A stretch of 64,000 bases of DNA from Haloarcula limicola. Its GTDB lineage: Archaea; Halobacteriota; Halobacteria; Halobacteriales; Haloarculaceae. Location of the stretch: NCBI RefSeq assembly GCF_010119205.1, contig NZ_WRXM01000001.1:1116001-1180000 (forward strand). The letters run 5' to 3'. The first letter of the stretch is position 1; each line of letters starts with the position of its first letter. Below the pieces are notes generated by a model. That model was not told the origin of the DNA. It saw nothing but the letters and a program-made list of their open reading frames with translations, and did not search any database. The position numbers and the translations under genes were made by a program. Below are positions 7,680-64,000 of this stretch, piece by piece.

Positions 7680-9485
7680 ATGAGTGAATCGATGGCCCTC
7701 TCCGACGTGTTTCTCACCCCCCTCGGTCTCGCCGCCCTCCTCGCGGCGGTCCCCATCATCGTCCTGTATCTCATCCGCCCCGACCCGGAACGGCTGGAGT
7801 TGCCGACCTTTCGGTTCCTGGCGAGCGAACAGCGCCAGCAGGCCACGAGTCCGCTGCTGGAGCGGCTCTCGCGGAGCGTCCTCCTCCTCGTGCAACTGGT
7901 CGTCGTCCTCCTGCTCGCGGTCGGCCTGGCGTCGCCGTACGTCCCCGTCTCCGAGCGTGCGACCGTCGAGGAGACGGTGCTGGTCGTGGACACGAGCGCC
8001 AGCATGACGACGGCCGACGGGTCGGGAACCCGATTCGACCGGGCGATTTCGGCCGCACGCGAGGAGGTGACCGGCACGACGTCCGTCGTCACGACGACCG
8101 GCGGCGGGCAGGTCGTCCTCCAGCGCAGCCCGCCCAGCGAGGTCGAGTCGACGCTGGACGGACTGACGGCGACGGACAGCCCCGGCGACCTCCGATCGGC
8201 CGTCTCACAGGCGACCGCGCTCGCCGGCGAGAACGCCCGCATCGTCGTGTTGAGCGACTTCGCGGGCGACGCGTGGACCGACACCGTCACGACCGCCCGC
8301 GGACGCGGTCTCAGCGTCGACCTCCGGCAGTTCGACGGCGGCGGAAGCGCGAACGTCGGCATCGTCGAACGCCGGTTCTCCGGGTCGGAGGTGACCGTCT
8401 CGGTGAAGAACTACGGCGACGAACCCGTGACGCGAACGGTCACACTCGGCGAGGGGAGCGCGCAGGTCGACCTCGGGGCGGGCGACGTCGCGACCGTCAC
8501 GCTGCCGGTCCCCGCCGGCCGGAGTCGGGTCCGTCTCTCGCCCGGCGATGACTTCCCCGTCGACGACAGCGTCGCCGTCGCCGCCCCCGAGGACCCGACC
8601 GTGGACGTGCTGGTGTTGACCAACGACCGCAACCGCTACCTGACGACGGCGCTCTCGGTGGTCGACCAGGTCGACCTCACCGTCGACAGTCCGCCGACGA
8701 CGGTCGACGACGGCTACGACGTCATCATCTACAGCAACGTCGACCCCGGCTCGCTACTGGCGGGGAACGTCGAGGCGGGCCGCGACGTCGTCGCCGACGG
8801 CGGCGGCGTCGCCATCCAGGCACAGCCCGAGATGCCCCAGAAGTACGGCGACCTGCTGTTGCTCGCCCCGGAGGGCGTTCGGGCCGGGTCGACGATCGGG
8901 CAGACGAGACAGACGACGCTCACGCGCGGTATCGACTTCCAACCGCCCGACGAATACGTCGGCGGCTCGCTCAAGGACGGCCAGGCGCTGGTCGAACTCG
9001 CCGACGGGACGCCGCTCATCGCGACCGCCGACCGAAACGGCGGCCGACTCATGTACTACGGCTACATCGAAGACCGATCGAGTTTCAAGTACAACTACCA
9101 GTACCCCGTGTTCTGGAAACGCACCGTCTTCTCGCTGGCCGACCGAGCGCCGCTCTCGGCGCTGAACTACGGGACCGGCGAGCGAGCGCAGTTCGACGCC
9201 GACAGCGTCGACGGCCCCGACGGGACCGTCGCCGGGCCGACCGTGACCCTCCAGCGGGCCGGCTTCTACGCGAGCGGCGAGCGCACGGTGAGCGCCGCGC
9301 TGCTCGACGAACGAGAGTCCGACGTCGCCGTCGAGGCGCTCGATACCCGCGAGGGCGTCGCCGGAAATCTGACGCGAGAGGAGCGACGGACCGTGCCGAA
9401 GCCGCTCACCGAGTACGCCGCGGTCGGCGCGCTGGCGGTGGCGCTCGCCGAGATCGGCTACCTCGGCCGACGGGGTGACCTCTGA
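7680..9485 (+). CDS. BatA-like vWA membrane protein
   Basis: A 601-residue protein, first gene of a six-gene operon. Residues 1-90 are a BatA (aerotolerance regulator N-terminal) domain with two membrane helices and the LYLIRPDPERLELPTFRFL signature. A von Willebrand A domain follows, with the metal-ion-dependent adhesion motif DTSAS at residues 104-108. The long middle is beta-rich and extracytoplasmic, and one membrane helix sits near the end (VGALAVALAEIGYLGRR). With MoxR ATPases and DUF58 proteins, such proteins are thought to assemble or mature envelope proteins or metal centres. The stop overlaps the next start (TGATG). Confidence 0.88.
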   Translation: MSESMALSDVFLTPLGLAALLAAVPIIVLYLIRPDPERLELPTFRFLASEQRQQATSPLLERLSRSVLLLVQLVVVLLLAVGLASPYVPVSERATVEETVLVVDTSASMTTADGSGTRFDRAISAAREEVTGTTSVVTTTGGGQVVLQRSPPSEVESTLDGLTATDSPGDLRSAVSQATALAGENARIVVLSDFAGDAWTDTVTTARGRGLSVDLRQFDGGGSANVGIVERRFSGSEVTVSVKNYGDEPVTRTVTLGEGSAQVDLGAGDVATVTLPVPAGRSRVRLSPGDDFPVDDSVAVAAPEDPTVDVLVLTNDRNRYLTTALSVVDQVDLTVDSPPTTVDDGYDVIIYSNVDPGSLLAGNVEAGRDVVADGGGVAIQAQPEMPQKYGDLLLLAPEGVRAGSTIGQTRQTTLTRGIDFQPPDEYVGGSLKDGQALVELADGTPLIATADRNGGRLMYYGYIEDRSSFKYNYQYPVFWKRTVFSLADRAPLSALNYGTGERAQFDADSVDGPDGTVAGPTVTLQRAGFYASGERTVSAALLDERESDVAVEALDTREGVAGNLTREERRTVPKPLTEYAAVGALAVALAEIGYLGRRGDL

Positions 9486-11848
9486 TGGTGTCGTACACCC
9501 TCGCCGACGGCCTGCGGGTCGGCGTCGAGCACCTCTGGCCGCTCGCGGTGCTCCCCGTCGCCGTCGCCCTGCTGACGTATATCGTCGTCTGGGGCGACTA
9601 CGGCCCGCGGTCGGCCTCGGCGCGGAGCCGCCGGCTCCTGTTCGGGAGCCGCGTGCTCGTGGTGGTCCTCCTCATCGTCGCCGCGATGGGGCCCTACACC
9701 GTCCAGACCCGGGAGACGGCGGGCGAGCCGAGCGTGACGCTGCTTGCCGACGAGTCGGCGAGCATGGCGGTCTACCCCAACACGACCGACTCGCTCGTCG
9801 GCGATATCGAGGACGAGGGCGTTCCCGTGACGAAGGCGACCGTCGGCAGCGGCAACGACTCCCGCCTCGGCGACGGCATCGCCGCGAACCTCCGGGAGAA
9901 CGGCACCGTGGTCGTGCTCTCGGACGGGCAGGTGACCGACGGCCGGTCGCTCTCGGCGGCCGCCGACGAGGCCAACGCGCTGAACGCGACGGTCAGCAGC
10001 GTGGGTATCTCGCCGACGGAGACGGAACGGGCCGTCAGCATCGCCGGCCCGCAGACGGTCAGCGCCGGTCTCCCGACCGAGTTCACCGTCTCGCTCGGGG
10101 CGGTCGAACAGTCCGGGTCCGCGACGGTGACGGTCAGCGTCGACGGCGAGACGGTGACGACCGAGTCGGTCGCGGCCGGCGAGTCCTTCGCCGTCAGCCA
10201 GTCCTTCAACGATACCGGCACGCACCGGATGACCGCCCGCGTCGAGGGCGAGGACGTCTACGACGTCAACGACGTCTACTATCGGAGCGTCCGCGTCGTG
10301 GAGAAACCCGATTTACTGTACGTTTCGGGCGGTAACTACCCGCTCGGCGACTACCTCGGGGACCTCTACGACGTGACCGAGGCCGAGACGGTCCCCGGCG
10401 ACCTCGACAACTACTCGGCGGTCGTCGTGCAGGACCGCCCGGCGAACCGCCTCGGCAACGTCAGCGCGCTGCAGGAACACGTCATCGACGGCGGCGGCCT
10501 GGTGATGGTCGGCGGCGACAACGCCTACGACAACGGCGGCTACGAGGAGTCGCCCGTCGCCTCCATGCTGCCGGTCAGAGTGGGTAACGCCACCGGCGGG
10601 ACGGCGAACATCGTCCTCGCCATCGACGTCTCCGGCAGTTCGAAGGAGGGTCTGGGGGTTCAGAAGGCCGTCGCGCTGGACGTCTTAGATCAGTTGGGCG
10701 ACGAGAACAAGGTCGGCGTCGTCGCGTTCAACTACCGCGCGTTCCGCGTCGCGGAGCTCCAGCAGCTCGGCGGCAACCGCGAGGCCATCGCCGACCGGAT
10801 CCGCCGACTGCAGAGCGGCGGCGCGACGGACATCGCCGTCGGCCTGCAGGGGGCCGACGAGCTCATGGGCGACGAGGAGGGGACGATCATCCTCCTGAGC
10901 GACGGGAACGACTACCTCGGACCGCCCTCGGCCGTCGCCAACCAGCTCGGCCGCGAGGGAACCCGCATCATCGGCGTCGGGGCCGCGAAGCGGGTCAATG
11001 AGCCGAAGATGAAGCGGATCGCCAGCGAGTCCGGCGGGTCGTACTTCTCGGCGAGCGAGACCGACCGCCTTCGACTGCTGTTCGGCGGGGGTTCCCGCCA
11101 GTACGAGGGGCAGAACCTCACGATCGTCACGCCGGACACGTTCATCACCTCCGGCGTCACGCTGACCGCCAACCCGGGGCAGGCCAACCGCGTGGCGGTC
11201 AAGTCCGGCGCGGACTTCCAGGTCGCCACCGCCGACGGCGAACCGGCCATCGCCTCGTGGCGCTTCGGCCTCGGTCGCGTGGTCTCCATCACTGCCTACG
11301 ACGACGACGGGACGCTCGGCGGGCTCCTCCGAAAGCCCGACTCGCTGGTCGTGACGAAGTCGGTCAACTACGCCGTCGGCGATCCCGCTCGGACGTCCAC
11401 AGGCGTGACGGCCGTCAGCGACGCCCGCGTCGGCCGCGAGGCGACGCTCACCTACCGCGGCGAGAACCGGCCATCGGCCGAAGACGTCAGTATTCGACAG
11501 GTGGGCGAGAGCGTCTACGAGGGGACGTTCACGCCTCGGGAGGTCGGTTACCACGACGTCCTCGGCACCGAGTACGCCGCGAACTACCCCGCCGAGTACG
11601 GCGCGTTCGGCCGCTCACAGCAACTCGAGTCGGTCGTCGAGGCGACCGGCGGGCAGACGTTCGCCCCCGACGACGGGGCGGCCATCGCCCGCCTCGCGCG
11701 CCAGCAGTCGACGCGGGTCCGAACCGTCCGCGACTCGTGGGGGTGGCTCGCGCTGCTCGCCGCGTTGCTCGTCTTCCTCGCGGAGGTCGTCGGCCGGCGC
11801 GTCCAGGTGTATCGCGGCCGCACCACGCTGGAGAGTGGTCTGCCATGA
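9485..11848 (+). CDS. Large membrane protein with two vWA-like regions and an amidotransferase-like segment
   Basis: A 787-residue BatB-like protein. Two membrane helices occupy residues about 18-75. A first MIDAS-like motif DESAS (89-93) opens a vWA-like region ending near GTVVVLSDGQVTDGR. A beta-sandwich region follows. Around residues 275-345 a GATase1-like segment carries YVSGGNYPLGDYLGDL, AVVVQDRPANRLG and GGGLVMVGGDNAY without an evident catalytic Cys-His pair. A full vWA follows with DVSGSS (from residue 381) and ILLSDGNDYLG. A membrane helix closes the protein (WLALLAALLVFLAEVVG). It probably forms the extracellular or membrane arm of the MoxR machine. Confidence 0.82.
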   Translation: MVSYTLADGLRVGVEHLWPLAVLPVAVALLTYIVVWGDYGPRSASARSRRLLFGSRVLVVVLLIVAAMGPYTVQTRETAGEPSVTLLADESASMAVYPNTTDSLVGDIEDEGVPVTKATVGSGNDSRLGDGIAANLRENGTVVVLSDGQVTDGRSLSAAADEANALNATVSSVGISPTETERAVSIAGPQTVSAGLPTEFTVSLGAVEQSGSATVTVSVDGETVTTESVAAGESFAVSQSFNDTGTHRMTARVEGEDVYDVNDVYYRSVRVVEKPDLLYVSGGNYPLGDYLGDLYDVTEAETVPGDLDNYSAVVVQDRPANRLGNVSALQEHVIDGGGLVMVGGDNAYDNGGYEESPVASMLPVRVGNATGGTANIVLAIDVSGSSKEGLGVQKAVALDVLDQLGDENKVGVVAFNYRAFRVAELQQLGGNREAIADRIRRLQSGGATDIAVGLQGADELMGDEEGTIILLSDGNDYLGPPSAVANQLGREGTRIIGVGAAKRVNEPKMKRIASESGGSYFSASETDRLRLLFGGGSRQYEGQNLTIVTPDTFITSGVTLTANPGQANRVAVKSGADFQVATADGEPAIASWRFGLGRVVSITAYDDDGTLGGLLRKPDSLVVTKSVNYAVGDPARTSTGVTAVSDARVGREATLTYRGENRPSAEDVSIRQVGESVYEGTFTPREVGYHDVLGTEYAANYPAEYGAFGRSQQLESVVEATGGQTFAPDDGAAIARLARQQSTRVRTVRDSWGWLALLAALLVFLAEVVGRRVQVYRGRTTLESGLP

Positions 11849-57396: not shown

Positions 57397-57981
57397 TCAG
57401 GTCCCGCTGGACTGCGCGGCAGTGAGATCCTCGCGCGTGTCGATGTCCCGCACCGCGCGGACGGGAGCGGGGCTGGGGACCGTGACGACCGAGAGTCGGT
57501 CCAGCAGGTCCGTCAGGGCGCTGGAGCCGAGCCCGAGGGTCGTATCGGCCGCCTCGACCGCGGCGTCGGCGCGATAGACACCGGCCAGCGGGCGCAGTCG
57601 GTCGCCGACGCGCGGGACCGCGCCGTCGTCCTCCGCCGCCGCGAACAGTCGCGACACCAACTGCGGTCGGACGAACGGCATGTCACAGGCCGTGACGAAC
57701 GTGAATCGGCCCCGCGCCACGCGACAGCCGGTTCGGATGCCCGCCACCGGGCCGCCGTCGGGCACCGGGTCGACGGCGAAGCGGTGGTCCACGCCGTCGA
57801 GGGCCGTCGCGATGGGCTCTCGTTGCTCGTCCCGGCAGTTGACGACCACCTCGTCGACCACGCCGTCGACGCGGTCGACGACGCGGCGGACCAGCGGGTC
57901 GCCGTCGAGTTCGGCGGTCGCCTTATCGGTCTCGCCGAACCGGGAGGAGTAGCCGCCGGCGAGGACGACTGCCGAGCGCAT
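57397..57981 (-). CDS. Molybdenum cofactor guanylyltransferase (MobA/NasC-like)
   Basis: A 194-residue MobA-like nucleotidyltransferase that attaches GMP to molybdopterin to form the bis-MGD cofactor needed by nitrate reductase. The signature is VLAGGYSSRFGETDKATAEL, and the metal site is in FVTACDMPFVRPQLV (Asp in DMP). It starts one base after the stop of the NarK-like transporter gene, so they are one transcript. In Haloferax mediterranei the equivalent gene, nasC, lies with nasA and nasB. The same partnership is inferred here. Confidence 0.88.
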   Translation of the reverse strand: MRSAVVLAGGYSSRFGETDKATAELDGDPLVRRVVDRVDGVVDEVVVNCRDEQREPIATALDGVDHRFAVDPVPDGGPVAGIRTGCRVARGRFTFVTACDMPFVRPQLVSRLFAAAEDDGAVPRVGDRLRPLAGVYRADAAVEAADTTLGLGSSALTDLLDRLSVVTVPSPAPVRAVRDIDTREDLTAAQSSGT

Positions 57982-57982
57982 C

Positions 57983-59302
57983 TCAGTCGCTCCCGCTCGT
58001 GACCTGCTCGGGTTCGCCGCCGCCGACGAAGCCGGCCGTGTTGGCGACTTTCGCTACCTCCGGGCGGAACACCCACGCCGACAGCAACACGATGGGGATC
58101 ATCGACGCCGCGACGACGGAGTAGCCGAGGTGGAGGTTCGCCAGCCACGGGGCGGAGTAGACCAGCGGGAAGAGGATGCCGCCGACCGTGCCGACGCCGC
58201 CGACGACGCCTGCGACCGCGCCGGAGCTGTTGGGAAACATCGAGGGGACCATCGCGAAGATGGAGCCCTCGGCGAAGGCACAGGCCGTGCCGACGAGGAA
58301 GCCGACGACGACGGCGTTCAGCAGGACGCCGGAGAGACCGGCGAGCGTCATCGCGAACATCGTCACGACGATGAAACACAGCGTGACGAACGTCCACTGC
58401 TCGCGGTAGCGACCGCGGAAGAACGGCAGGATATCTTTCTCCTTGCGCGCGAGCACGTCGCTGACGTAGCCGCCGATCGGGCGGAGCAGGCCGGCCGCGA
58501 CGGAGAACGTCGCGGCGAACGTGCTCGCGAGGACGAGGTTGTCCTGGTTGAACGCCTCGCGGTAGTAGGTGGCGAGCCAGCCGTTCATTGACAGTTCGAG
58601 GCCGAACGACATGACGTACGCGAGCGCGAGGACGACGGTCCCATAGCGCGTGGCCGTGTGGAGCCAGTCCCTGAAGCTCGCGTTGTCCTTGGTCGCCTGG
58701 CGCTTCTCCTCGCTCTTTGCGGCCTCTCCGAGCGTGTAGTACGCGACGGCGAGGAAGATCGAGACGACGCCGGTGTAGAAGAAGGCGGCGCGCCAGTTCG
58801 TCGAGAACAGCGGCCCGTTCCACCCGGAGCCGAACACGCGCGGGAGGACGAGCGCGCCCGCCGCGGCCCCGGCGTTGCCGACGCCGGCGTAGATGCCCTC
58901 GGCGAGGCCGAGGTTCTCCTCTTCCCACCACTCGGCGACATGCTGGATGCCGATGACGAACGTGATGCCCGCCGTCGCGACGATGATGCGCGTCACGAAG
59001 AACAGCGAGTACGTCTCGATGAACGCGCTCGCCATCGAGAACACGCCGACGTACGTCAGCACGATGGCGAAGATCGCCGGCGCACCGTACTTATCGGAGA
59101 GCCACCCGGTGAGCATCCGTCCGAACGGTGCCATCCAGATGGCCGAGCTGGCGAGGATACCGATCTCGGCCGTCGTCAGCCCGAACTCCTCGGCCATCGG
59201 CCCCGTGAACGGCGCGAAGGAGAACCAGATGAGAAAGGAGAAGTTGAACCCGATGGTGGCGAGCACGAGCGTCCGGTACTTCGTCATCCTGATCAGTCCC
59301 AT
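57983..59302 (-). CDS. NarK/NasB-like nitrate transporter (MFS)
   Basis: A 439-residue MFS protein with 12 predicted helices and the nitrate/nitrite porter pattern: [20 protein letters not shown] in helix 1, [20 protein letters not shown] (MFS loop), [20 protein letters not shown] in helix 5 and [20 protein letters not shown]. It probably imports nitrate for the reductase encoded divergently. GGAGG at 59310-59314 (minus) lies 7 bases before the ATG. The gene starts the nasB-nasC-type pair with MobA. Confidence 0.9.
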
Positions 59303-59872: not shown

Positions 59873-62002
59873 ATGACTCACTGGAAGCCAACGACCTGTA
59901 TGCGGTGTGCGGTCGGCTGCGGCCAGCACCAGCGCGGCGTCGACCAGGGGTACGGCGTCGACAAGGTCCGGGGCGACTACGACCACCCCGCGACGGCGGG
60001 ACTGTCCTGCGAACGCGGCATCAGAGAGACCGAGAACCCCGACGGCGAGTGGCTCACGGAGCCGCTCATCCGCCGGGGTGACACGCTCAGACCCACCTCG
60101 TGGGAGCAGGCGCTCGGCGTCGTCGCGGCCGAGTTCATCCAGGCGATCGCCGACGACCCCGACAGCGTGGCGGTCCTCGGGAGCGGCCAGCAGACCAACG
60201 AGGCCGCCTACGCGCTGGGGAAGGTCGCTCGCGGCGGCATCGGCACCAGACACTTCGACGCGAACACGACGCTGTGTATGGCGAGCGCGGTCAGGGCATA
60301 CTACGACGCCTTCGGCAGCGACGCGCCGCCGCCGACGTACGACGACATCCCCGAGGCGGAGACCCACGTCGTCTGGGGGGCGAACCCGGCGGTCGCCCAT
60401 CCGGTGTTGTACCGGTGGATCCTCGACAGCGCCGCCGACGCGGACAGCCGGCTGGTCGTCGTCGACCCCGTCGAGAGCGAGACGGCCGCCGACGCCGACC
60501 AGTACGTCGCGCCCGACCCCGGCACCGACCTCGAACTCGCCCGCGCCCTCCTCGCGCGACTTGTCGGCACCGACCGAATCGACCGGGCGTTCGTCGACGC
60601 CTACACCGAGGGGTACGACGAACTGGTCGACTCGCTCCCGGACGCCGCGAGCGCCGCCGAGACGGCCGGCGTCTCGATGGCGACGGTCGACGCGCTGGCC
60701 GACGCCTTCGCGGACCCGACGCTGCTGTACTGGGGGATGGGCGTCAACCAGAGCACGAACGGCACCGACGCCGCGCGGATGCTCGTCAACCTCTGTCTGG
60801 CCACCGGGAACCTGGGGCCGGGGACCGGCCCGTTCTCGCTGACCGGACAGGCCAACTCGATGGGGGCTCGGGTCGTCTCCTCGAAGGAGACGTGGCCGGG
60901 TCAGCGGCCGTTCACCGACCAGGAACACCGGGCGACGGTCGCCTCGACCTGGGGCGTTCCGCTGAGTCGACTGCCCGCCTCCTCGGGGCCCGGGCCGGTC
61001 GGCATCGTCGACCAGATCAACCGCGGCAACGTCGACGTCTGTTGGACCGTCGCCACCAACCCCGTCGCGGGGATGCCCGACGCCACCAACGTCGAGCGCT
61101 CGCTCGACGACGTCTTCCTCGTCGCGCAGGACGCGTTCCGGTCGGAGACGGTCGAACACGCCGACGTGGTGTTGCCCGCGGCGACGTGGGGCGAGACCGA
61201 GGGGACGACGATGAACATGGAACGGCGCGTCTCCAGGGTCACCGCCGTGAGCGACACCGTCGACGCCGTCCGGCAGGACCTCGACATCATCGCGGCGCTC
61301 GGCAACCGCATCGACGAGGACCTCTTCGACGAACCGCCGCTCGACCCCGAGACCGTCTTCGACGAGATCCGGTCCCTGACTGAGGGGACCGTCGCGGACT
61401 GCTCGGGCATCACCTACGACCGCCTCGACGCGGAGCTGGCCGTCCGCTGGCCCGCCCCGGACGAGGAGACGCAGGGCGGGTATCGTTACTACGAGGGGAG
61501 CGAGAGCGGTAGCACCGACGAGGGCGAGTCGTGGTCGTTCCCCACCGACTCCGGGCGGGCGTGCTTCTCGGCGGCGACCTACCGCGGCCTGCCGGAACCG
61601 ACCGACGCGACCTACCCGCTCCTCCTGACGACCGGGCGACGGGCCGGCGCGTACAACACGGGCGTCCGGACCCGCGAAACGGCCAGCGAGGTCCCGACGG
61701 CACGCATCCATCCGGAGACGGCCGGCCAGTACATCGACCTGCTGGACCGCGGCCGGACCGTCGTCGAATCGCGCCGCGCGCGAGTCACCGTCGACCTCGC
61801 GCCGGACGACAGCGTCCCGACCGGTGCCATCTGGATGGACGTTCACAATCCAGCGGTGAACGACCTGACGGTGCCGGCGGTCGACCCCGACTCGAATGAA
61901 CCCAACTACAAGCAGTGCGCCGTCCGTCTCGCGTCCCCGGACGCCGGCCCGACGGTGACCCAGAACGGCCTGCCCCGAACCGGCACGCTCGACGGCGACT
62001 GA
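59873..62002 (+). CDS. nasA: Assimilatory nitrate reductase, molybdopterin subunit (NasA)
   Basis: A 709-residue bis-MGD oxidoreductase of the assimilatory NasA/NapA group. The [4Fe-4S] ligands are Cys9, Cys12, Cys16 (TTCMRCAVGCGQ) and Cys46 (GLSCERG). The probable molybdenum ligand is Cys135 in NTTLCMASAV. Further landmarks are WGANPAVAHPVLYRWI, NPVAGMPDATNVERS and the C-terminal aspartate-decarboxylase-like barrel (NEPNYKQCAVRL). It reduces nitrate to nitrite with ferredoxin-type electrons. Divergent to the NarK-MobA pair and tail to tail with a close paralogue at 62041-64000. No nitrite reductase gene is visible in the window. Confidence 0.92.
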   Translation: MTHWKPTTCMRCAVGCGQHQRGVDQGYGVDKVRGDYDHPATAGLSCERGIRETENPDGEWLTEPLIRRGDTLRPTSWEQALGVVAAEFIQAIADDPDSVAVLGSGQQTNEAAYALGKVARGGIGTRHFDANTTLCMASAVRAYYDAFGSDAPPPTYDDIPEAETHVVWGANPAVAHPVLYRWILDSAADADSRLVVVDPVESETAADADQYVAPDPGTDLELARALLARLVGTDRIDRAFVDAYTEGYDELVDSLPDAASAAETAGVSMATVDALADAFADPTLLYWGMGVNQSTNGTDAARMLVNLCLATGNLGPGTGPFSLTGQANSMGARVVSSKETWPGQRPFTDQEHRATVASTWGVPLSRLPASSGPGPVGIVDQINRGNVDVCWTVATNPVAGMPDATNVERSLDDVFLVAQDAFRSETVEHADVVLPAATWGETEGTTMNMERRVSRVTAVSDTVDAVRQDLDIIAALGNRIDEDLFDEPPLDPETVFDEIRSLTEGTVADCSGITYDRLDAELAVRWPAPDEETQGGYRYYEGSESGSTDEGESWSFPTDSGRACFSAATYRGLPEPTDATYPLLLTTGRRAGAYNTGVRTRETASEVPTARIHPETAGQYIDLLDRGRTVVESRRARVTVDLAPDDSVPTGAIWMDVHNPAVNDLTVPAVDPDSNEPNYKQCAVRLASPDAGPTVTQNGLPRTGTLDGD
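60155..60222 (+). repeat. 68-base block identical to 63764-63831 (inverted)
   Basis: All 68 bases of nasA codons around QQTNEAAYALGK are the same, including third codon positions, in the two convergent paralogues. The partner lies in reverse orientation at 63764-63831. Confidence 0.8.
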
Positions 62003-62040
62003 AGAGGGGGCCGAACGTTCGAGCCGCTCTCGCCGACCGC

Positions 62041-64000
62041 TCAGTCCGCGGTCGCCGGCGGCAGTTCCGCCTCGGGTGCGGTGAGCCTGACCGCGCACTG
62101 CTTGAAGTGCGGTTCCCTCGACTGCGGGTCCAGTTCCGAGAGCGTGAGCCGGTTGGTCTCCGGATGGTGGATCGGCAGCCACACCATCCCCCGAGGGACG
62201 CCCTCGTCGGGGTCGAGGCGAGCGGTCGCGGACCCGCGCCGGGAGACCACCGCGAGACGGTCTTCAGTCACGTCGTCGGCGTGCTCGTCGACGGTGTCGG
62301 GATGGACCCGGGCCACGAGGTCGCCGGCGGCCCCGCCGCGCGACCGGACGCCCGTGTTGTAGCCGTCGGCCTCCCGCGCGGTCGTCAGGGTCAGCGGGTA
62401 GTCGTCGTCGGTCGGTTCCGGCAGGGCGGCCTGCCGGCCGGTGGAGAACTGTGCGTTGCCCGACACCGTCGGAAATGACCACGACTCGCCCTCGTCGGTG
62501 TCGGCGTCGTAGTAGCGGTACCCGCCGGCGCTCTCGACGTCGGGCGCGGGCCACCGGACCGCGTGAGCGTCCTCCAGCCGGTCGTAGGTGATGCCCGAGC
62601 AGTCCGCGACGGTCCCCTCGGTGAGCGCGGTGAACTCCTCGAATATCGATTCGGGGTCCGGCGACGTGCTCTCGAAGAGGCCGAACAGTCGCGAGCCGAT
62701 GGTAGCGATGATGTCGAGGTCCGGTCGGACGCCGCTCGGCACCTCGGTCGCCGCCCGGACCCGCGAGATGGTCCGCTCCATGTTGGTTGTCGTCCCCTCG
62801 CTCTCGCCCCACGTCGCCGCGGGCAACACCACGTCGGCGAGCTCGGTCGTCTCCGTGTGGAAGGCGTCCTGCGCGACGACGAAGGCGTCGCCGAGCGCCT
62901 CGCGGGCGGTGTCGGCCTCCGGCATCCCCGCAACGGGGTTGGTGGCGACGGTCCAGACCGCGTCGGGACCGGCTTCGAGGACGCCGACCGGTCCCGGCCC
63001 GGGGTCGTCGGGCAGGCGGTCGACCGGCACGTCCCAGCGGTCCGCGACGGTCCGGCGGTGATTCGGGTCCTCGAACGCTCGCTGTCCGGGCCACGACCCC
63101 TTCGAGGAACAGACGCGGGTCCCCATCGAGTTGGCCTGCCCGGTCAGCGAGAACGGGCCGCCGCCGGGCCGGAGGTTGCCGGTGGCGAGCGTCAGGTCGA
63201 CGAGCGCCCGCGCCGTCTCAGTTCCTTGGACGTGCTGGTTGATACCCATCCCCCAGTAGACGAGGGCTTGCTGGTCCAGCGCGTCGGCCAGCAGGTCCAC
63301 CTTCGCCGTCGGGACGCCGGCCGTCTCGGCGGCGCGCTCGGCGTCGGGCAACACGTCGAGCAGCGCGTCGAAGCCGTCGGTGGCCGATTCGACGAACGCC
63401 TCGTCCACGCGGTCGGTCTCGACGATCCGAGCGAGCACCGCCCGCGCCAGCGCGAGGTCCTTTCCGGGGTCGGGCGCGACGTGGTGCTCCGAGTTCTCGG
63501 CCGTCTCGGAGCGCACCGGATCCACGACGATGATCTCCACGTCTTCCTCGTCCGCGGCCTGCCGTATCCAGCGGAACATCACGGGGTGGGCGACCGCCGG
63601 GTTCGCCCCCCAGACGACGTGGCGGTCGGCGTCCTCGATGTCGGCGTAGGTACACGGCGGGGCGTCGCTGCCGAACGCCTGATAGTACGCCGTGACCGCG
63701 CTCGCCATGCACAGCGTCGTGTTCGCGTCGTAGTTGCGCGTCCCGAATCCGCCGCGGGCCAGTTTCCCCAGCGCGTAGGCGGCCTCGTTGGTCTGCTGGC
63801 CGCTCCCGAGGACCGCCACGCTGTCGGGGTCCCGTTCGTGGGCCTCGCGCAGCCCCTCGACGGCGCGGGCCAGCGCCACGTCCCACGTCGTCTGCCGGAG
63901 TTCGCCGCCGCTGCGGACGAGCGGGCGCGTCAACCACTGACCGTCTGGATCCCTGCTCTCCTGAATGCCGCGGGCACAGGCCAGCCCCTGATTGACCGGA
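62041..64000 (-). CDS. Second nitrate reductase paralogue (5' end cut by window edge)
   Basis: The visible part covers about 652 codons of a NasA-like molybdopterin protein. The fourth [4Fe-4S] cysteine is seen in GLACARGIQE near the edge. The molybdenum cysteine is in NTTLCMASAV, and WGANPAVAHPVMFRWI, NPVAGMPEAD and REPHFKQCAVRL match the other copy. The frame continues upstream of an internal TTG at 63933, which is not the start. Over a 90-residue stretch around the Mo ligand about five residues in six equal those of the first copy (hand alignment). The function is likely also nitrate reduction, but a related substrate cannot be excluded. Confidence 0.85.
   Translation of the reverse strand, partial: PVNQGLACARGIQESRDPDGQWLTRPLVRSGGELRQTTWDVALARAVEGLREAHERDPDSVAVLGSGQQTNEAAYALGKLARGGFGTRNYDANTTLCMASAVTAYYQAFGSDAPPCTYADIEDADRHVVWGANPAVAHPVMFRWIRQAADEEDVEIIVVDPVRSETAENSEHHVAPDPGKDLALARAVLARIVETDRVDEAFVESATDGFDALLDVLPDAERAAETAGVPTAKVDLLADALDQQALVYWGMGINQHVQGTETARALVDLTLATGNLRPGGGPFSLTGQANSMGTRVCSSKGSWPGQRAFEDPNHRRTVADRWDVPVDRLPDDPGPGPVGVLEAGPDAVWTVATNPVAGMPEADTAREALGDAFVVAQDAFHTETTELADVVLPAATWGESEGTTTNMERTISRVRAATEVPSGVRPDLDIIATIGSRLFGLFESTSPDPESIFEEFTALTEGTVADCSGITYDRLEDAHAVRWPAPDVESAGGYRYYDADTDEGESWSFPTVSGNAQFSTGRQAALPEPTDDDYPLTLTTAREADGYNTGVRSRGGAAGDLVARVHPDTVDEHADDVTEDRLAVVSRRGSATARLDPDEGVPRGMVWLPIHHPETNRLTLSELDPQSREPHFKQCAVRLTAPEAELPPATAD
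63764..63831 (-). repeat. 68-base block identical to 60155-60222 (inverted)
   Basis: The partner block, read on the minus strand within the second nasA-like gene. The sequences beside it diverge at once (aagg versus aact), so the boundary is sharp. Confidence 0.8.

Follow-up and report, generated by a model that had tools for sequence, protein, structure and literature searches.

Genome-specific identical blocks in ancient convergent nasA paralogues of Haloarcula point to recurrent short-patch gene conversion

Introduction

Two nitrate reductase genes of Haloarcula limicola face each other tail to tail, encode proteins that differ clearly over most of their length, and yet share blocks of DNA that are identical at every base, synonymous positions included. 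How did genes so different come to share such blocks? An earlier note on this DNA had proposed either a recent duplication by inverted copying or gene conversion refreshing selected blocks. We addressed the question in the window, by which we mean the whole 64,000-nucleotide stretch of H. limicola DNA that was analyzed, and in a search that covered 146 genomes of the family.

Results and Discussion

The nasA gene pair and its distribution

Copy A of nasA (59873–62002, + strand) encodes an A-type protein of 709 residues and copy B (62041–64000 within the window, − strand) a B-type protein of 690 residues. Their stop codons are separated by 38 nt (62003–62040), confirming the convergent layout and the gap described in the earlier note. 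The extent given there for A was correct, while the end given for B, position 64000, is the edge of the window; the gene continues to a GTG start at window-equivalent position 64113 (L036:12113; full gene L036:10041–12113). Both proteins scored above the curated equivalog cut-off of 1000 bits for the haloarchaeal NasA profile NF041323 (Nitr_red_NasA_Halo), with 1160 bits for A and 1219 bits for B. Pfam domains PF04879 (Molybdop_Fe4S4), PF00384 (Molybdopterin) and PF01568 (Molydop_binding) were found in both, as were the N-terminal 4Fe-4S motif and the Mo-bisMGD domains with their cysteine. Judged by these matches and by the position of copy A in clade A of the protein tree, A and B are haloarchaeal assimilatory nitrate reductases (NasA). 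Over the whole gene, A and B showed 61% amino-acid and 70% nucleotide identity, which upheld the claim that the proteins are clearly different outside the blocks, and synonymous divergence was saturated over the gene as a whole.

Divergent from A is a gene for a narK-like nitrate/nitrite MFS transporter (nasB-like; 57983–59302, − strand), whose top NCBIfam match, TIGR00886, scored 189 bits, under its cut-off of 312. This gene also adjoins nasA in genomes with B only. Beside it is a gene for a MobA-like protein (nasC-like; 57397–57981, − strand; Pfam NTP_transf_3). A molybdenum-cofactor cluster adjoins B just beyond the window's right edge (L036 12416–17490); it comprises moaA, a moeA-like gene, a mobB-moaE fusion and a moeA fused to a PBP-like domain. 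The genome encodes three nitrite/sulfite-reductase-type proteins (G000:C2:553849, G000:C1:1818401 and G000:C2:984571), none of them beside nasA.

Across the genomes searched, B-type genes were present in most of Haloarcula, and an A-type partner was found in 11 Haloarcula and two Halorientalis genomes. A was convergent with B in all 13 of these paired genomes. Genomes lacking A have B and then narK on the same strand; in those bearing A, this gene sits in inverted orientation with B on one side and narK on the other, and almost all of these genomes have narK, often together with mobA, in divergent orientation to A. The gap between the two genes ranges from approximately 25 bases to 2.2 kb. In L045 it holds a nitrite-reductase-like gene (9081–10847) and in L041 a second MFS transporter gene (8949–10322), both identified by reading the sequence only, and cargo appears to have entered the gap more than once.

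Identical blocks in the window's pair

An ungapped codon comparison of the window's pair identified identical runs of 68, 41, 38, 36 and 26 nt, the 36-nt run being at HVVWGANPAVAH. The longest lies at 60155–60222 (+ strand) in A, within codons 94–116 (approximately DPDSVAVLGSGQQTNEAAYALGK), and at 63764–63831 (− strand) in B, and its identity at every base was as the earlier note had described. The longest run in any A–B comparison between different genomes was 50 nt, with a mean of 22 (n = 351), and a site-specific scan gave p = 0.004 for codons 94–115 in the window genome. Based on this mixed-pair maximum and the scan, the 68-nt run exceeds what chance and protein conservation would produce. 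It is the core of a hot segment for conversion defined across genomes (60125–60322, + strand; codons ~85–150), which includes Cys135 of A. This residue, the cysteine of the LCMASAV motif, aligned with Cys140 of NapA 2nap (alignment to 2jio/2nap), known as the molybdenum ligand.

The earlier note had also drawn attention to two shorter runs of about 37–41 bases. Both exist, and only one of them is supported as a conversion block. The 38-nt run near ATWGE, at ADVVLPAATWGE (approximately 61155–61192, + strand; A codons ~428–440), is a second-rank hot segment backed at group level only (columns 420–439, z = 4.8). The 41-nt run at TVADCSGITYD showed no excess over expectation (columns 500–519, p = 0.56); it was dropped as a conversion block and is probably a product of protein conservation.

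Tests for gene conversion in 13 convergent pairs

If A and B had evolved separately, synonymous codons should be shared no more often between the A and B of one genome than between those of different genomes. Over the whole gene, sharing was 0.656 in the same genome versus 0.612 between genomes, and at codons 85–145 it was 0.753 versus 0.580. Within the blocks, same-genome synonymous identity was 0.745, compared to 0.631 after random re-pairing (13 genomes; p = 5e-5, z = 7.4). Outside the blocks there was a slight excess (0.629 versus 0.611 re-paired) that could stem from shared genome codon usage. The longest identical run was on average 48 bases when A and B came from one genome and 22 when they came from different genomes. 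Synonymous identity between orthologues in the block windows was only about 0.60–0.71, for A–A and B–B alike, and was no higher there than in the remainder of the genes. Over a bounded segment, paralogues within a genome were closer to one another than orthologues were. Three segments showed the excess, the strongest at codons ~85–150 and weaker ones at ~300–330 and ~420–445.

One alternative is that purifying selection alone accounts for the blocks, with conserved active-site residues and codon bias making the synonymous sites agree. The blocks do coincide with conserved cofactor-pocket segments, the high-GC codon bias gives approximately 61% synonymous agreement even at saturation, and the TVADCSGITYD run above probably has this very explanation. 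However, A–B pairs drawn from different genomes have the same residues and the same general bias, and they share far fewer block codons. Two patterns were counted in pairs of genomes, concerted (Ax = Bx and Ay = By, the two codons being different) and crossed (Ax = By and Ay = Bx, again with different codons). Concerted patterns outnumbered crossed ones by 352:25 at codons 91–120 (14:1), 210:33 at 121–150, 145:36 at 301–330 and 161:14 at 421–450. By contrast, control windows of the same genes gave 48:64, 34:37, 23:49 and 24:38, and the ratio did not rise above about 1:1 in, for example, windows 31–60, 181–240, 331–360, 451–480 and 541–570. Because the crossed pattern bears the same protein constraint, and because the 1:1 windows show little effect of bias, selection with codon bias is ruled out for the blocks. 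The re-pairing test and the pattern counts together refute purifying selection alone for the main block, and we regard it as very improbable overall.

Protein identity and the blocks were correlated at a Spearman coefficient of 0.34. Codons 500–520 are highly conserved and nonetheless lack a conversion signal, which indicates that protein identity alone is no predictor of where the blocks lie.

The signal was also apparent in individual genomes. The site-specific scan found a segment at p < 0.05 in eight of the 13 genomes, with the top segment always inside codons 94–143, and no individually significant segment in the other five; none of the 13 mis-paired controls was significant. At codons 99–118, the own-genome partner was the nearest of 25 genes for 6/13 A copies and 7/13 B copies, compared to ranks of 13th to 25th among 25 at control codons 181–315. 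The proposal that gene conversion has refreshed selected blocks is therefore strongly supported, because each genome has its own set of homogenized synonymous codons and homogenization of this kind is found in many species. A polarized sister-pair parsimony test for one-way copying did not rise above the control level in the main block, which suggests that the events are probably old relative to the splits between sisters.

Orientation of the pairs

Does the inverted layout itself produce the blocks? Tandem (head-to-tail) pairs of A-type nasA genes occur in seven genomes of other lineages (L175–L180 and L051), and as a group these pairs show homogenization of the same segment. Synonymous sharing in their main block was 0.827 in the same genome versus 0.639 (n = 7), the ratios of concerted to crossed patterns were 95:2 and 70:0, and the profiles of excess in the tandem and convergent groups were correlated (rho 0.52, p = 0.0016). 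As the tandem pairs share the hot block, the inverted layout is not required, and we rejected it as the cause. The main block of five divergent (back-to-back) pairs showed no excess, and none was seen in four unlinked pairs (two sets of two); these sets are too small for a claim that linkage is required. We also observed that homogenization within a genome was stronger in the tandem pairs than in the convergent ones.

These observations bear on a second alternative, template switching at an inverted repeat (a quasipalindrome-type correction) driven by the layout. The genes are indeed inverted and close together. However, the hot block lies at their far (5′) ends, about 3.5 kb apart and away from the centre, the direct repeats of the tandem pairs have the same block, and in the strongest case, L045, 2.2 kb and the nitrite-reductase-like gene intervene between the copies. 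We consider template switching very improbable.

The earlier note had suggested that the inverted arrangement could permit inversion. The arrangement is conserved, but no crossover or inversion chimeras were found among the pairs in a windowed analysis of A/B affinity that sought swaps of the A and B 3′ halves, the footprint expected of inversion through the block. Their absence fits conversion without crossover.

Age of the two copies

In a midpoint-rooted protein tree of 103 NasA sequences, the deepest split separated A from B, and each half also contained other families and genera. On this basis, the pair is no recent copy; it combines either two old paralogues or a resident gene with an old acquired one. 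The Halorientalis A/B pairs (L047 and L048; G077 and G081) nest within the Haloarcula A and B clades, which suggests that the pair moved horizontally, with narK, as one unit. Other Halorientalis genomes carry a different NasA.

A recent inverted duplication, in which B was copied to A or A to B and the blocks have yet to diverge, would fit adjacent inverted genes with identical blocks in common. Against it, A and B are about 61% identical everywhere, compared to 75–92% among A orthologues and 78–91% among B orthologues in the other paired genomes (by gene A, the closest named relative of the window genome is Haloarcula amylovorans, at 92%). Thus, over the whole gene, the paralogues are not less diverged than the orthologues. 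In addition, no split in the tree is deeper than that between A and B, which spans families, and the arrangement is kept in 13 genomes. The tree and the orthologue identities refute recent inverted duplication, the other proposal of the earlier note, and we give it almost no weight.

Equally negligible is the idea that a DNA or RNA element in both genes, such as a regulatory site or structured RNA, fixes the block sequence: the two copies of the block have no mismatch in the window genome, but its synonymous sites vary freely among species (A–A and B–B 0.60–0.71), conservation of the block DNA across species is absent, and the match is found only within a genome.

Proposed mechanism and significance

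We are confident, based on the sequence comparisons, that the blocks reflect recurrent short-patch, non-crossover conversion between ancient convergent NasA paralogues, surviving mostly in near-identical protein segments. In this reading, two anciently diverged paralogues were juxtaposed convergently in an ancestor of part of Haloarcula, with A inverted and flanked by the resident nasA (B) and by narK. Homologous recombination without crossover has since repeatedly copied short patches, from tens to perhaps 150 bases. The surviving events lie mostly where the proteins are nearly identical, around the molybdenum-ligand cysteine (~85–150), at GPFSLTGQANSMG (~300–330) and at the ATWGE segment (~420–445). 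There, protein constraint may keep the DNA nearly identical and so provide a seed for recombination, and conversion may erase new synonymous differences, such that identical stretches could sustain themselves. Longer conversions would overwrite positions at which the two proteins differ, and selection may purge such conversions.

A broader reading is that haloarchaea have a short-patch (<~150 bp) form of ectopic conversion that proceeds without crossover between linked but strongly diverged genes, homogenizes the active-site cores of paralogous enzymes as their other parts diverge, and is distinct from the kilobase-long conversion between chromosome copies. We consider this possible but doubtful.

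The 13 convergent and seven tandem pairs constitute a natural replicate of conversion over tens of bases in a catalytic core, between paralogues that are approximately 40% different outside the converted patches. Patches of this size would escape whole-gene surveys, and they can distort gene trees built on the conserved NasA core. They also raise the question of whether haloarchaeal recombination makes short ectopic tracts or selection filters out long ones.

Comparison with known systems

The gene content of the locus resembles the nasABC operon of Haloferax mediterranei, in which nasC is MobA-like (PMC8143581), in that NasA, NarK-like and MobA-like genes occur together. The B-only Haloarcula genomes, with nasA and then narK on one strand, resemble that operon, and the paired genomes differ from it in having the extra A-type nasA inverted between B and narK. 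None of the papers searched mentioned a two-copy nasA nitrate reductase together with Haloarcula.

Partial concerted evolution is a known process, and the nasA pair adds to it a new and strongly replicated haloarchaeal case with unusually short patches. A close counterpart is the partial concerted evolution of methanogen mtrA (PMC4632066), which likewise involves ancient archaeal paralogues, conversion in one functional portion only and recurrence in independent lineages. In mtrA, however, the whole MtrA domain is homogenized between genes of one operon, whereas in nasA, a haloarchaeal case with convergent as well as tandem pairs, tens of bases are affected in a 2.1-kb gene whose proteins are otherwise about 61% identical. 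The partial gene conversion of the bacterial release factors RF1 and RF2 (PMC4530459) is similarly limited to a functionally interchangeable segment of functionally separate paralogues; there, two cases were reported and nearly a whole domain was converted, compared to the many species and shorter patches in nasA.

A survey of long-lasting concerted evolution in prokaryotes identified 26 genes, seven of them archaeal and all of these from methanogens (PMC6053082), and its main text makes no mention of haloarchaea or nitrate reductase. The nasA genes share the evolutionary process of those cases; patchy conversion would be overlooked where paralogues are sought by their grouping along the entire gene. 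In Haloferax volcanii, intermolecular conversion between genome copies extends over kilobases and takes in whole ORFs (PMC8223754). Conversion in nasA is like it in being haloarchaeal homologous recombination with no need for selection, and given those kilobase tracts, the short length of the surviving ectopic tracts in nasA, about 30–150 bases, is notable.
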